DNA of 64,000 nt from an uncultured Spartobacteria bacterium (GTDB taxonomy: Bacteria > Verrucomicrobiota > Verrucomicrobiia > Chthoniobacterales > Chthoniobacteraceae), in the NCBI GenBank assembly GCA_903882875.1, contig CAIRYQ010000072.1, forward strand, positions 62,001 to 126,000, written 5' to 3'. Both the position numbers and the translations under genes were made by a program. This document shows, in pieces, positions 2,908-13,399 of the stretch. Under the pieces are notes generated by a model that was given only the letters and a program-made list of their open reading frames with translations, had not been told where the DNA came from and made no database searches. Position 1 is the stretch's first letter; every line of letters starts with the position of its first letter.

Positions 2908-3600
2908 TTATTGGGATTTGCGGCGTTTGATTTGCTCCTGAATATCGGGAGCAAGGCCGGTAGGAATACCGGCTGACGGTTGTTGTGGCTGCGATTGGGG
3001 TGGTCCCTCAAAGTGCTCCACAGTTTTACTATGGACTTGTGAAATGATTAAGCTGTCAATGATGTCCATGTCGCGGTTCAACTCCTTGCGATAAACGGCG
3101 TGCTCGTAACCGCGAAGCGATACGGCGGCAAACATGAGCCAGTATGAAAGCACAGATGAAGACGGGAAAACCCAGACTCCGATGCCAGCGCAAAAAATGG
3201 GGTCGAAGATTCGGGCCATTCTTCGGTCGCGGCGGCACCAATCGGGAAGCCAACGGTAATCAAAGGGGGAACTGCCGATGTAGTAAGAGTGCTGCACGCT
3301 TCCAGCTTTAAGCTCTTTCCAGCGTTTGCCACGCTGGGCAAGTCCAAGAGAGAGGGACAATACTGCAAACCAAAACAAATCTTGCGGGTTGGTGCCAGGA
3401 TGAGTCGGGCCGACAAGTGCTGAGAAAATAGCCAAGGGACCCGTTACGCTGAGCAGATGCTTCGGGTTCAAGAAACGGTAGCCCATATCCCTGCGTATAA
3501 ATACCATGACGGTCAGGGCGGGATACATCATCCACCACTGCGCATTCTCGACCTTCTGCCAGTATGAAAGGTTGTTGTTCTGTTGTCCGGGCGGTGGCAT
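2908..3600 (-). CDS. Small membrane protein next to coupling-type ATPase, unknown function
   Basis: The 230-aa protein has hydrophobic segments near residues 22-36 (MMYPALTVMVFI), 47-62 (VTGPLAIFSALVG), 75-88 (FWFAVLSLSLGLA) and 138-162 (FCAGIGVWVFPSSSVLSYWLMF). The C-terminal tail is soluble and proline/glutamine-rich. The stop of the upstream ATPase gene is 1 bp before its start, implying a common operon. Since the ATPase lacks the N-terminal membrane domain usual in VirD4/TraG proteins, this protein could supply the anchor in trans; this is a hypothesis from gene order. I do not recognise a named family. Confidence 0.65.
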   Translation of the reverse strand: MPPPGQQNNNLSYWQKVENAQWWMMYPALTVMVFIRRDMGYRFLNPKHLLSVTGPLAIFSALVGPTHPGTNPQDLFWFAVLSLSLGLAQRGKRWKELKAGSVQHSYYIGSSPFDYRWLPDWCRRDRRMARIFDPIFCAGIGVWVFPSSSVLSYWLMFAAVSLRGYEHAVYRKELNRDMDIIDSLIISQVHSKTVEHFEGPPQSQPQQPSAGIPTGLAPDIQEQIKRRKSQ

Positions 3601-3601
3601 A

Positions 3602-5077
3602 TCAGCTCTGGTTAAAAGTTATCAACCGGTAGGGCAGCGTCTCACTTCCGCCCGTAAAGAGATGACCACCGTTATAGACGATGGCCTCGACTTGGTTGTT
3701 GTGGAGGGGGCCACCACGTTTCAGCGTGGTGAAAAACGACGGCTCCACGAAAAACCGTCGCTGGTCGCTGCGGGCCACGCCCGCACTGTTGCTGCCGTCT
3801 CCGGGAGTCTGAGCGCCTTCGTTTCGGGATTGGCCGGCGTTGGTGCTGGTGATTTTCGTCCAGCGTTCGCCCAAAAGTTTGGCTGCCCATTCGTTCGTCT
3901 CGCCGCTGTTCTGGCAAAAGAACTTCGCCTGAAGGTTTCCGAGCAGGGAATCCACGGCATCGGTATTGCCCAAAACGCGGCGGTAGCTTTCGCGATTTTG
4001 GGTCAGGAACACCGTGCATCCGGCTGCGGAGCGTGCGACGGCCTGATATTCTGCGTCAAAATTGGTGACGAAATTTTGCGCCTCGTCGGCCCAAAGGAAG
4101 ACGGGGCGCAAAAAACTTGTGCGTCCTGCGGGCGGCGTGCGCCTGAGCACGGCGACCTGGAAACAGTATTTCCAAGCGAGGTTGGCGATGCGTCCCGCGA
4201 GCCGGTATTCTTGGACAGGAAGATCCACGATGATGATTTTGCCCTCAAAGGTGTCCTCCGGGGTGATGTTGGTGTCGGTCGAAAAAAGCGTTCGCAGGGG
4301 CCGCGTGATGAGCGGGCGCACCAGCATCGAAAACGACAGGTTGATGATGCTGCGGGTTTTTTCGGAAAGGACGGGGTATTCCTGCAACCAGTAGTTCCGG
4401 CACTCCTCGAAGTCGGCGCGGATGTCGGCGCTGGCTTTGAGGGTGGCACTGTCAGCCTCCCGCAAAATGGCCGCGCAAGCGCTCGTTTCCTGCCATTTTG
4501 AATCGTCCAATTGCTCAAGGTTTTGGGGTGCCGAATTGATGATGGAACGCATCAAGGGGAGCGAAACCCGAAGCCCGGCGAAGACGGGCAAGTCCACCAG
4601 ATTGGTGTTCATGTGATGCAGCGCATCATCCCAAAATTTGTTGTCTCCCTGTCCGCCGTCGGACGAGCCTGCCGAGTGCGCGATGGCTCCGGCGATTTCA
4701 TCAAGAATGGAGACGATGTTTATGGTCAGCCCGCCGCCTGCTTCCGGTCGGCTGGCCTCCCATTCGAGGAAATTGAACCGCCATTTCCCCTCGCCGTCAA
4801 TGATGACAAGGTCGCCCAAGCGACCTGTCTCGGCCGCCCATTGCTCCCACTGACGGCGTTCTTCTTTCTTCGCACAGAGGACCAGCCCGCCAAATCCGGC
4901 GGCAAGGTAGCCGTAGGCCAAGTGCTTGGCGGGGCCGCTGGTTTTTCCACTGCCAGTTGCACCGAATACGCACACGCCGGTTTGCGCATCTGCGATGCGA
5001 AAACCGCTGCCGTTCCCCCAATCTCGCAGCACAGTTTGGGGGTGAAATTCGGGCGCGTCGTGGCTGCCAGCCTTCAT
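3602..5077 (-). CDS. VirD4/TraG/TraD-like conjugation coupling ATPase lacking an N-terminal membrane domain
   Basis: The ATG at 5077 gives 491 aa; a TTG at 5113 in the same frame is an alternative start. A Walker A motif (GATGSGKT) lies at about residues 39-46, a Walker B-like FLWADEAQ motif near residue 310, and a TraM-recognition/TraG-C type segment follows (TVFLTQNRESYRRVLG). Coupling proteins are hexameric ATPases that bring relaxase-bound DNA to a type IV secretion channel. Typical VirD4/TraG proteins begin with two membrane helices, which are absent here. The three genes behind it include two membrane proteins. It is divergent from the MobA/MobL relaxase at 5625, which fits a mobilization module. 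The ATPase class is clear; substrate and partner channel are unknown. Confidence 0.82.
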   Translation of the reverse strand: MKAGSHDAPEFHPQTVLRDWGNGSGFRIADAQTGVCVFGATGSGKTSGPAKHLAYGYLAAGFGGLVLCAKKEERRQWEQWAAETGRLGDLVIIDGEGKWRFNFLEWEASRPEAGGGLTINIVSILDEIAGAIAHSAGSSDGGQGDNKFWDDALHHMNTNLVDLPVFAGLRVSLPLMRSIINSAPQNLEQLDDSKWQETSACAAILREADSATLKASADIRADFEECRNYWLQEYPVLSEKTRSIINLSFSMLVRPLITRPLRTLFSTDTNITPEDTFEGKIIIVDLPVQEYRLAGRIANLAWKYCFQVAVLRRTPPAGRTSFLRPVFLWADEAQNFVTNFDAEYQAVARSAAGCTVFLTQNRESYRRVLGNTDAVDSLLGNLQAKFFCQNSGETNEWAAKLLGERWTKITSTNAGQSRNEGAQTPGDGSNSAGVARSDQRRFFVEPSFFTTLKRGGPLHNNQVEAIVYNGGHLFTGGSETLPYRLITFNQS

Positions 5078-5624
5078 GCAAAAAACGGTGACTGTGCCGG
5101 TTTCCACCGGCAAGGCAAAGTGTTTTCGCTGCGCTGCTGCGGGGGTTCAGGGGCGGCACGCCCCAGGTGCCGGTTCCAAGGGCGCAGCCTTTGGGCAGGG
5201 ATGTTAAGGGCGGCACGCCCTTGCACGCGCCGGTGCCTCCGGCCGTGTCAGCGGGTTCCAAGGGCGGCACGCCCTTGGTCGGGATCGGAAGGGCGGACAG
5301 CCCTTGCATGAGCGGTGGGGACCGCTCAAGAAGCAGGGTTCAAAGGGGTCGGCTTCGGAGACCCCTTGCGAGGGATGTTGCGGGGCAACATATAACCTCG
5401 CCATTCCTCCGCTCGCCTTCGGCTCGCTCCGGCCTGGGCTGTGGTGCTCGCTCACGCTCGCAGCTTGTGTTGAACTGAAAAAAGCGGCTGGGCAAAAAGC
5501 CCGAGAGGGTAAAAAACGCGCAAAGCCGCGCTCAGCCTTATTTTCCAGACTTAGCGGGGCAGATGTGGTAGTATCTTTGTGTTGCCTGTTCGGTAACGAC
5601 TCTGAGGGACGACTGGTAAGGGAG
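5078..5624. other. Divergent intergenic region with hairpin array; candidate oriT/control region
   Basis: This gap separates the divergent ATPase and relaxase genes and contains no convincing gene, although the relaxase frame stays open through its right half. It holds at least eight inverted repeats between 5150 and 5390, listed separately. Further right, a GGGCA(4)GCCC-like hairpin occurs near 5490-5502. Relaxase genes commonly lie next to their origin of transfer, so oriT and both divergent promoters are expected here. I could not identify a nic sequence by eye. Confidence 0.5.
5150..5390. repeat. Array of eight short palindromes, five sharing an AAGGGCGgcaCGCCCTT-like core
   Basis: Five units are variants of one palindrome: 5150-5164 (GGGGCG/CGCCCC arms), 5176-5194, 5206-5222, 5258-5278 (nine-base perfect arms around GCA) and 5289-5305. 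Three unrelated hairpins follow: 5310-5327 (arms GAGCGGT/ACCGCTC), 5343-5367 (AAGGGGTC/GACCCCTT) and 5376-5390 (TGTTGC/GCAACA). The core unit keeps its pairing while its ends vary (one G-T pair in the second copy), consistent with selection for hairpins or a dimeric protein site. It may alternatively be a REP-like element that has amplified locally. Confidence 0.8.
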
Positions 5625-6536
5625 ATGGCACTCTTTAGACTCGAAGCGAAAATTTTTAGCCGTGAGAAACGAGGTCGGTCCGTCGTCGCTGCTGCCGCTT
5701 ACCGCGCCGGAACGAAGCTCCGGGATGAAATTAAGGAAAAAATCTTCGACTACGCCCGCAGGAGCAAGGGGGTAGTCGAGTCCATGATTCTGGCACCTGC
5801 TGGTGCTCCGGCCTGGGCTGTGGATTCCAACCAACTTTGGAATGCGGTCGAAGCGGGCGAGAAGCGCGTGGACGCACAACTTGCACGCGAATTTATTTTG
5901 GCAGTTCCGCCGGAACTGGCCGCTGAAGCCCAATTCCAAACGGCAGTGGATTGGGCGCAAAAGCACTTGGTTGATTCCGGCATGGTCGCCGAGGTCTCCC
6001 TTCATCACACGAAGACGGGCAAGAATCCGCATGTCCACATTCTCTGCACCATGCGGAAACTGGACGGGGAAAAGTTCAGTTCCAAAAAGGCCACGGAATG
6101 GAATGACGTGGGGTTGCTGGTGAAGCAACGCGAGTCCTGGGCGGAGGCGGTCAATGCCGCCTTGGAAAAAGCCGGACGGGATGAGCGGGTGGATCACCGG
6201 TCATTAAAAGACCGGGGCATTGACCGTGCACCCGAGCCGAAAATCGGCGTGGCAGCCACGGCCATGAAGCGCCGGGGCGTCGAAGCAGACCCGGAGCGAT
6301 TTCAAGCCGTCCGGCGCGTGAAAATGCTGAACGAGGTCCGCCCGATGATGAAGGCCATCAAGGGGCATGGGGAAGTGAAGCAAAACGGAGTTGGCGCAAC
6401 GTGGTGGGAAAAATCGGTGGTGTTTATGACCCGCGTTCGCGACCTTGCGCGCGACGTGATTAAGAGCACTTGGCGGAAGCTGCTTGACGTGCGGCGGGAG
6501 CGCGATGAGACGAAAGGGCCTGAACGTGACAGATGA
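5625..6536 (+). CDS. mobL: MobA/MobL-family conjugative relaxase
   Basis: I start the gene at ATG 5625 (303 aa) because the protein then begins MALFRLEAKIFSREKRGRS, the usual start of MobA/MobL (MobQ-class) relaxases. An upstream in-frame extension to 5304 covers the hairpin array and looks non-coding. An early tyrosine (AYRAG, residue about 27) could be the nucleophile. The metal-binding histidine motif HTKTGKNPHVHI lies at about residues 128-139. Relaxases nick one strand at oriT and pilot it through a coupling protein. A purine-rich GGGAG directly precedes the ATG. The C-terminal part is basic and lacks a helicase or primase domain. The stop overlaps the next start (ATGA at 6533). Confidence 0.88.
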   Translation: MALFRLEAKIFSREKRGRSVVAAAAYRAGTKLRDEIKEKIFDYARRSKGVVESMILAPAGAPAWAVDSNQLWNAVEAGEKRVDAQLAREFILAVPPELAAEAQFQTAVDWAQKHLVDSGMVAEVSLHHTKTGKNPHVHILCTMRKLDGEKFSSKKATEWNDVGLLVKQRESWAEAVNAALEKAGRDERVDHRSLKDRGIDRAPEPKIGVAATAMKRRGVEADPERFQAVRRVKMLNEVRPMMKAIKGHGEVKQNGVGATWWEKSVVFMTRVRDLARDVIKSTWRKLLDVRRERDETKGPERDR

Positions 6537-9187: not shown

Positions 9188-10369
9188 ATGTCTCTTTCGG
9201 ATGCGAAGGTTAAAAATGCTAAAGCGAGGCCCAAGTCATATAAAATAGCGGATGGCGAAGGAATGTTTCTTTTGGTCACGCCATCCGGGGGTAAATGCTG
9301 GCGTTTCAAATACCGCTATGCAGGCAAGGAAAAGCTTCTGGCGCTAGGTGTCTATCCCGAAGTGAGCCTAAGTGACGCCAGAGAGCGCCGTTCGCTGGCA
9401 CGGAAGGCATTAGCTGCGGGTAATGACCCAGGCGAAGTCAAAAAAGAGAGCAAGCGGCTGACGATTTTAAAATCCGAAAACGCGTTTGAGGTGGTCGCCC
9501 GCGAATGGATCGAGCAACGCAGACATACTTGGGCAAAAATAACTGCAAAAACGAGGATTATGCGGTTGGAAAAGCATGTTTTCCCAAAATTAGGAAAACG
9601 ACCTATTGCCGACATTACTGCGCCCGAAGTTCTCACTATGCTGCGAGTGGTTGAAGGCAGCGGTGCCTTAGACACGGCAACGCGTGTCATGCAGACCTGC
9701 GGGCAGATTTTCATGTATGCCATCGCCACGGGACGCGCCGAGCGCAATCCGGTTCCCGATTTGCGTGGCGCTCTCAAAACGCCCGTCATCAAACATCATG
9801 CTTACCTGAAAGCTGCTGAATTGCCCGACTTCATGAAAAGGCTGGAAGCCTATGACGGTGCTTTGCAAACCAAGCTGGCGCTTCGGCTGCTGCTGCTCAC
9901 CTACGTCCGCACGACAGAACTACGGGCGGCGGAATGGACGGAAGTGGATTTCGATAAGGCCGAATGGCGGATTCCAGCCGAGCGGATGAAAATGAAGGAA
10001 TTGCATATCGTGCCGTTGTCGAGTCAGACACTTGCGGTGTTGCGTGAGTTGCAAACGCATTCAGGCAACCGGCAATATGTTTTTCCAAATCAGCACAGCC
10101 CGAATTCCTTTATGAGTGAGAATACCATGCTCTACGCGCTGTATCGGATGGGCTATCACTCGCGCACGACCGGACACGGGTTTCGCAGCACTGCCAGCAC
10201 GATTCTCAACGAACATGGCTTTACGCCCGACGTGATTGAGCGTCAGCTTGCTCATGGCGAGCGCAATAAAGTGCGCGCCGCCTACAACCACGCACAATAT
10301 TTGCCGGAACGTCGAAAGATGATGCAATGGTGGGCGGACTATCTGGATGGCATTGCGTCAAAAATCTGA
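9188..10369 (+). CDS. int: P4-type tyrosine site-specific integrase
   Basis: The 393-aa protein begins with an arm-type DNA-binding domain (DUF4102; SLSDAKVKNAK, about residues 1-85), then a core-binding SAM-like domain (about 95-195), then the catalytic domain. Catalytic residues are visible: R241 (TYVRTTEL), H330 and R333 (HGFR), H356 (AHG) and the tyrosine nucleophile Y366 (AAYNHAQY). Its length is usual for the P4/CP4-57 family, which typically inserts elements at tRNA or other RNA gene 3' ends. AGGAGA lies 10 bases before the ATG. The protein would catalyse integration and, with an excisionase, excision of the element carrying the relaxase. The actual attachment site is not identified. 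Confidence 0.95.
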   Translation: MSLSDAKVKNAKARPKSYKIADGEGMFLLVTPSGGKCWRFKYRYAGKEKLLALGVYPEVSLSDARERRSLARKALAAGNDPGEVKKESKRLTILKSENAFEVVAREWIEQRRHTWAKITAKTRIMRLEKHVFPKLGKRPIADITAPEVLTMLRVVEGSGALDTATRVMQTCGQIFMYAIATGRAERNPVPDLRGALKTPVIKHHAYLKAAELPDFMKRLEAYDGALQTKLALRLLLLTYVRTTELRAAEWTEVDFDKAEWRIPAERMKMKELHIVPLSSQTLAVLRELQTHSGNRQYVFPNQHSPNSFMSENTMLYALYRMGYHSRTTGHGFRSTASTILNEHGFTPDVIERQLAHGERNKVRAAYNHAQYLPERRKMMQWWADYLDGIASKI

Positions 10370-13301: not shown

Positions 13302-13329
13302 CTGTCGTAAGTCCCTCAGCGAGAGGGGA

Positions 13330-13399
13330 GCGGGTGAAGGGAATCGAACCCTCGTATGCAGCTTGGGAAGTTGCCGTTCTACCATTGAACTACACCCGC
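13330..13399 (-). tRNA. tRNA-Gly (anticodon CCC)
   Basis: The complement folds as a cloverleaf. It has a 7-bp acceptor stem (GCGGGTG/CACCCGC), a D arm (GTTC/GAAC), an anticodon loop TTCCCAA giving anticodon CCC, and a T arm with TTCGATT. The anticodon stem has one A-C mismatch. No CCA is encoded. It reads GGG codons as glycine. Its 3' end faces the accessory island to the left, which is the side where P4-type integrases insert. Confidence 0.92.

Follow-up and report, generated by a model that had tools for sequence, protein, structure and literature searches.

Here, we address the question of why a cluster of hairpins lies between the divergently oriented genes for a coupling ATPase (minus strand) and a MobQ relaxase (plus strand) in the window, i.e., the 64-kb stretch of DNA analyzed. 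A sequence-only reading had described this cluster as eight hairpins, five of them copies of one palindrome, within 240 bp in a gap where an origin of transfer (oriT) is expected, and had offered a multi-site relaxosome binding region, attenuation or antitermination, and a REP-like element as explanations. We propose, with a probability of roughly 0.55, that the region is an expanded MOBQ oriT of an integrative mobilizable element, the hairpins of which act in single-stranded transferred DNA (T-DNA), most plausibly as a start site for the complementary strand.

Between 5150 and 5391 on the plus strand, we found nine hairpins in total, i.e., an array of eight (5150-5367) and the inverted repeat of the oriT (Table 1). 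The clustering is real: the window hairpins include eight with a stem of at least 6 pairs, whereas 200 Markov shuffles gave 1.65 on average and never more than 4. Nowhere else in the 64 kb are such hairpins so densely clustered, and the folding z-score of the array is −4.8, with none of 200 shuffles being equally stable. The repeated unit of the family to which this array belongs is a GGGGTT linker followed by a hairpin. The five palindromes are related to each other; only two are exact copies of the 17-base core AAGGGCGGCACGCCCTT and the remaining three are variants, while the G-T pair said to preserve one stem is present. Short GC palindromes in an intergenic gap could represent a REP-like dispersed element amplified at this locus. 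However, in a whole-genome pattern search of the 5.78-Mb genome, AAGGGC-N5-GCCCTT occurred three times, each time in the array, and no further copy of this pattern, or of the core with one mismatch, was found. Because the palindrome occurs nowhere else in the genome, the array is not a REP element; the search that had been suggested as a check refutes this explanation in the window's genome and leaves it with next to no probability.

Table 1. Features of the oriT region and its host element (window coordinates)
Feature	Position	Strand	Basis or remark
TraG/VirD4-like coupling ATPase	3602..5113	-	PF12696, PF10412
Eight-hairpin array	5150..5367	+	Linkers of GGGTT/GGGGTC type; 5' of nic on transferred strand
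Hairpin GGGGCG-GCA-CGCCCC	5150-5164	+	
Hairpin CCAAGGGC-GCA-GCCTTTGG	5176-5194	+	Contains G.T pair
Hairpin AAGGGCG-GCA-CGCCCTT	5206-5222	+	
Hairpin GCCGG-TGCCT-CCGGC	5229-5243	+	
Hairpin AAGGGCG-GCA-CGCCCTT	5260-5276	+	Extends to 5258-5278
Hairpin AAGGGC-GGACA-GCCCTT	5289-5305	+	
Hairpin TGAGCGGT-GGGG-ACCGCTCA	5309-5328	+	
Hairpin AAGGGGTC-N9-GACCCCTT	5343-5367	+	
Hairpin ATGTTGC-GGG-GCAACAT	5375-5391	+	Ninth; oriT inverted repeat
Two-level oriT fold	5368..5401	+	Outer stem GCGAGG (5368-5373)/CCTCGC (5396-5401) around inner repeat 5375-5391; unpaired ATAA
Inferred nic TATAACCTCG^CCATT	5400..5401	+	Homology to TAAGTGCG^CCCT (RSF1010) and to L016, L122, L123
MobQ-family (MobA/MobL) relaxase, 303 aa	5625..6536	+	PF03389, E=2.8e-64; NCBIfam MobQ equivalog, 214 bits (cut-off 200)
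Tyrosine integrase of host element	9188..10369	+	PF22022, PF13356, PF00589
35-bp direct repeat in 3' end of tRNA-Gly(CCC)	13321..13355	+	
tRNA-Gly(CCC)	13327-13399	-	

At the right end of the array, the inverted repeat ATGTTGC/GCAACAT is followed by ATAACCTCG^CCATT. RSF1010 is cut at ...GAGAAACCGGTAAGTGCG/CCCTCCC (PMC4814116). In the window, a degenerate match to the TAAGTGCG^CCCT-type nic follows the inverted repeat within ~9 nt and is connected to the canonical site by intermediates; moreover, the adjacent gene encodes a relaxase above the NCBIfam MobQ cut-off and matching PF03389. Near matches to TAAGTGCGCCCT are present in loci L016, L018, L023, and L024 and plasmids L118-L122, nearly all with a hairpin just 5'. 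L016 has the canonical form GTAAGTGCG^CCCTTC after GCAAAC-GCA-GTTTGC, while intermediate forms are TATAAGCGCG in L023 and L131 and TATAAGCGTG in L121; TATAACCGCGCTATT is common to L025 and the Salipiger plasmid L123 (annotated MobQ), identical over 15 bases. In all array relatives except L016, one array end has an inverted repeat, then TATAA and a nic-core variant, which is mostly TATAACC(G/T)CGC(C/T) and is TATAAGCGCGC in L023. Because the intermediate forms link the canonical nic to that of the window, they support that the putative window nic is homologous to MOBQ/RSF1010-type TAAGTGCG^CCCT sites. The oriT expected in the gap is thus marked by a MOBQ-type nic site, and we consider it very likely that the array region is a MOBQ-type origin of transfer. 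Just after nic lies GCTCCGGCCTGGGCTGTGG (5424-5450), which recurs inside the relaxase gene (5803-5825); a similar stretch also follows nic in L012 and L013. In L013, a stretch of nearly 200 bp that lies downstream of nic, between array and relaxase (about 3240-3660), is tandemly duplicated and includes the promoter-like TATAATGTTC.

The fold extends into nic itself. The outer stem is formed by six bases around nic and a partner segment immediately 5' of the inverted repeat; its two arms read GCGAGG/CCTCGC in the window, GCGCGG/CCGCGC in others, and GCGCAC/GTGCGC in L118 and L119. Because the arms vary among loci while remaining paired, a change in the nic sequence is matched by one in its pairing partner. 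Pairing in the outer stem is 100% in alignment A2, and A-U is replaced by C-G in 4/8; the same two-level plan is present in MOBQ plasmid oriTs, while RSF1010 itself (L133) has no outer stem. Scans of single loci for the outer stem were not significant (p from 0.04 to 1), and the evidence that counts is the concerted change of the two arms from locus to locus. The pair counts on A2 use the correct structure and not the drawing in covariance models R1 and R2, in which the 3' arm of the outer stem is one column off and which served only for finding relatives. R2 matches in G384, G163, G164, and G255 appeared to be chance matches when read, and 24 viral-contig matches to the nic core, none of them with an outer stem, were also judged to be chance.

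A coupling-protein scan of 84,980 genomes yielded 72 loci, and arrays of the same arrangement were found in L012-L016, L018-L020, L023-L025, and L115. The array-bearing elements with related coupling proteins belong to Verrucomicrobiota, Armatimonadota, Chloroflexota, and Burkholderiales, the taxonomy of loci from metagenome-assembled genomes (MAGs) being open to binning errors. In five close loci from Verrucomicrobiota (L012, L013, L014, L015, and L025), the genes diverge as in the window with the array in the gap, and two loci from Burkholderiales MAGs (L023 and L024) have a sparser array. In three further MAG loci, L018 (Armatimonadota) and L019 and L020 (Verrucomicrobiota), the array is beside the relaxase gene, with no divergent coupling gene on the far side of the gap. 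In L016, from a Thermogemmatispora isolate (Chloroflexota), the relaxase gene is inverted and located on the opposite side, so that the array separates it from nic. L115 (1300-1760), the second copy of the array in genome G295, adjoins a Fic gene and the mere remnant of a relaxase start and is, judged from its sequence, a decayed or satellite oriT with its hairpins retained. Whatever the side of the relaxase (L016) or the coupling gene (L018-L020), the array is always 5' of nic on the nic-bearing strand. This fixed orientation with varying flanking genes argues that the array follows nic and not the genes. The number of hairpins (at least 6 pairs, oriT repeat included) per 300 nt 5' of nic is 7-9 in the six closest loci and 3-6 in the remaining loci, compared with 0-3 on the 3' side. 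GGG(N)T stands no more than 9 nt ahead of 40/72 family hairpins versus 15% of random array positions and 8% in shuffles. The complete family relaxases found have 298-345 aa; their starts fall between +98 and +439 relative to nic, on the T-strand, while those of the three plasmid relaxases located are on the opposite strand, at −73 to −156.

The same observations bear on readings that connect the array to expression of the flanking genes. An attenuator or leader of the relaxase gene, or antitermination as previously suggested, is disfavored because promoter-like sequences for the relaxase, read by eye, are downstream of the array, no T-runs were seen after the array hairpins, and the array of L016 is opposite to the relaxase while its orientation to nic is unchanged. 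That the array is a single-stranded promoter serving the leftward gene was rejected as not general, because the orientation of flanking genes varies.

Which form of the DNA is under selection is suggested by the stems, which differ in sequence between copies and species while pairing is kept. In the A2 module, we counted 16 double-changed cells (90% paired), whereas column shuffles gave 5.4 and slid controls no more than 3. Among single mismatches in stems of at least 8 pairs, G.T outnumbered A.C by 20 to 2, which, because some hairpins are shared by descent, we estimate to represent about a dozen independent events; the control ratios were 39:33 in the window and 365:282 in shuffled arrays, and an initial count with short stems included gave 21:6. 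Because a G.T pair on one strand is an A.C mismatch on the other, what is selected seems to be the fold of the T-strand, i.e., the folding of one strand rather than duplex palindromes. Conservation of pairing on one strand rather than of stem sequence suggests a single-stranded substrate, and the array probably acts as one folded strand. The T-strand also folds better than its complement in 13/13 family arrays; however, dinucleotide shuffles of the window array gave an equal difference, showing base composition, and this argument was dropped. If the palindromes instead functioned in duplex DNA, as operators or an insulator between divergent operons or as cruciforms helping to melt oriT, this would agree with the divergent genes in the window and with the commonness of palindromic operators; however, about equal numbers of G.T and A.C mismatches would be predicted and the arrangement is not divergent in L018-L020, making such a function improbable.

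The G.T bias and the covariation are equally compatible with RNA and single-stranded DNA. A structured small or cis-regulatory RNA could, therefore, be transcribed through the array, placed like the sgm-sRNA of SGI1, which requires an RNA encoded beside its oriT (PMC9299015). Against this, an Rfam 15 search of the array gave no match above the gathering score, the relaxase promoter-like sequences are downstream, a terminator-like hairpin with a T-run precedes the array in L020, the flanking genes flip while the orientation to nic stays, and the fold includes nic; we consider this RNA unlikely, and less likely than a role in the relaxosome (see below).

The host element (G000:C72:49746-75355, in the window up to 13355) is integrated at tRNA-Gly and has a length of ~25.6 kb; the second copy of the 35-bp repeat is at G000:C72:49746-49780. 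Its cargo is of the defence type, comprising a ThsB-like TIR protein, two more TIR proteins, a SLOG protein, HsdR and HsdS (type I restriction), ArdC (anti-restriction), and Fic (DUF4172); the element also encodes two tyrosine integrases. Because no mating-pair apparatus was recognized in the scanned part, the element looks mobilizable rather than self-transferring. The true start of the coupling ATPase is probably at about 5077. Between this gene and the array lies a conserved CGGCAAGGCAAAACG stretch (5095-5125), which is also upstream of the array in L015 and L025, is palindromic in L015 (CGTTTTGCC-CGGCAA-GGCAAAACG), and is a possible operator.

We infer nicking, transfer direction, single-stranded action, and priming role as follows. 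The array would have arisen by expansion of a linker-hairpin unit present once in many MOBQ plasmids. The relaxase would recognize the inverted repeat and nick at about 5400^5401, and, with the orientation deduced by homology, the plus strand would be transferred such that the relaxase gene enters first and the hairpin array last. The array would be last to arrive in the recipient or last displaced in the donor, and the single-stranded T-strand would snap into hairpins spaced by short G-rich linkers. This folded tract may be a structured landing site, most plausibly for starting complementary-strand synthesis, i.e., a single-strand origin (sso). We found no helicase or primase domain in the window relaxase, and the family relaxases are too short for such an added domain, arguing that other enzymes must prime the second strand; the short relaxase together with an array that is 5' of nic and exposed last fits an sso role. 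In the window, AAGCAGGGTT precedes the last hairpin of the array, and its counterpart AAGCGGGGTC is conserved in L012-L015, L025, and L115; within it, AAGCGG is kept ahead of the last hairpin in these six loci and is AAGCAG in the window. We take AAGCGG to be a primosome assembly site motif and treat it as a lead only, no known sso or primosome motif having been demonstrated in the array. Judged by position and shape, the priming role is tentative, at somewhat less than even odds.

The main rival is that the hairpins dock the relaxase, an accessory protein, or the coupling ATPase and thereby raise their concentration at oriT or mark the T-strand end for re-ligation in the recipient. The array adjoins the oriT repeat, its linker-hairpin unit resembles the single hairpin of MOBQ plasmids, and GGCAC-type loops are conserved in many of its hairpins. 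By contrast, no MobC-like gene was identified beside the array, and stems that vary while pairing is kept fit the reading of a structure over that of a duplex sequence. Thus, the multi-site relaxosome binding region of the sequence-only reading survives as a rival, although the conservation of pairing instead of stem sequence points to a single-stranded substrate; we regard it as rather unlikely.

Literature searches found no paper on hairpin arrays at oriT and no description of a GGGGT-linker hairpin ahead of many MOBQ oriTs; it is the expanded form that was not found in the literature searched, whereas the MOBQ oriT itself is known. To our knowledge, chromosomal elements of Verrucomicrobiota, Armatimonadota, and Chloroflexota have received little attention with respect to their oriTs. 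The array oriT can be recognized from its sequence and fold, and its repeated T-strand structure expands from a single unit in plasmids to eight. Second-strand synthesis of integrative elements was described in 2015 as almost unknown (PMC4595007); if the array is an sso, it would reveal how such small elements are made double-stranded in unrelated hosts.

Comparison with known systems places the array closest to MOBQ oriTs (RSF1010/R1162, pYAN-1-like, and Acinetobacter/Acetobacter MobQ plasmids), which have the same inverted repeat, an 8-9 nt spacer, and a TAAGTGCG^CCCT-type nic, mostly with stem pairing across the inverted repeat with the nic region and often with one hairpin at −44 to −58. 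Distant blastn gave no plasmid matches to the window or L023 arrays, while 53 plasmids match the oriT part of L016, and those fetched adjoin MobQ genes. Among 20 MOBQ oriTs sampled outside the family (18 on plasmids, including RSF1010-type ones, and L128 and L131), 7 have no proximal hairpin, whereas a single hairpin immediately 5' of the inverted repeat is present in 13, with a GGGGT-type linker in six of them; the hairpin at −44 to −58 with such a linker is seen in L124-L126, L134, L139, and L142. The array, therefore, looks like this one linker-hairpin unit, repeated and diversified. Unlike these plasmids, the window family shows as many as eight hairpins in addition to the oriT repeat, a nic pentamer of CCTCG/CCGCG with the outer stem changed to match, and, in most members, the relaxase gene on the leading side of nic. 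A minimal RSF1010-type oriT is not known to need upstream hairpins, arguing against a general requirement for the array in nicking.

The array resembles the SGI1 sgm-sRNA in being a conserved non-coding stretch adjoining the oriT of an integrative mobilizable element; however, the SGI1 relaxase is tyrosine-recombinase-like and the sgm-sRNA is transcribed, while the array is known from sequence alone. With REP/BIME elements, it shares short GC-rich palindromes between genes; unlike them, it is bound to one locus and one orientation. With the ssos of rolling-circle plasmids and ICEBs1 sso1, it shares several stem-loops on the displaced strand with an orientation fixed to the nick, as in the definition of an sso (PMC4595007). 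In most rolling-circle plasmids, the sso is upstream of the nick and exposed last, as the array would be, whereas ICEBs1 sso1 is downstream of oriT (PMC4595007). In contrast to these ssos, the repeated units of the array join the oriT directly, and the likeness is one of position and shape rather than sequence. We speculate, with more doubt than for priming as such, that the array may be a structure-read, sequence-tolerant sso, in which as many as eight linker-hairpin units in tandem, joined to a MOBQ oriT, would allow small integrative elements that have a minimal relaxase to turn their T-DNA into duplex in hosts of different phyla.
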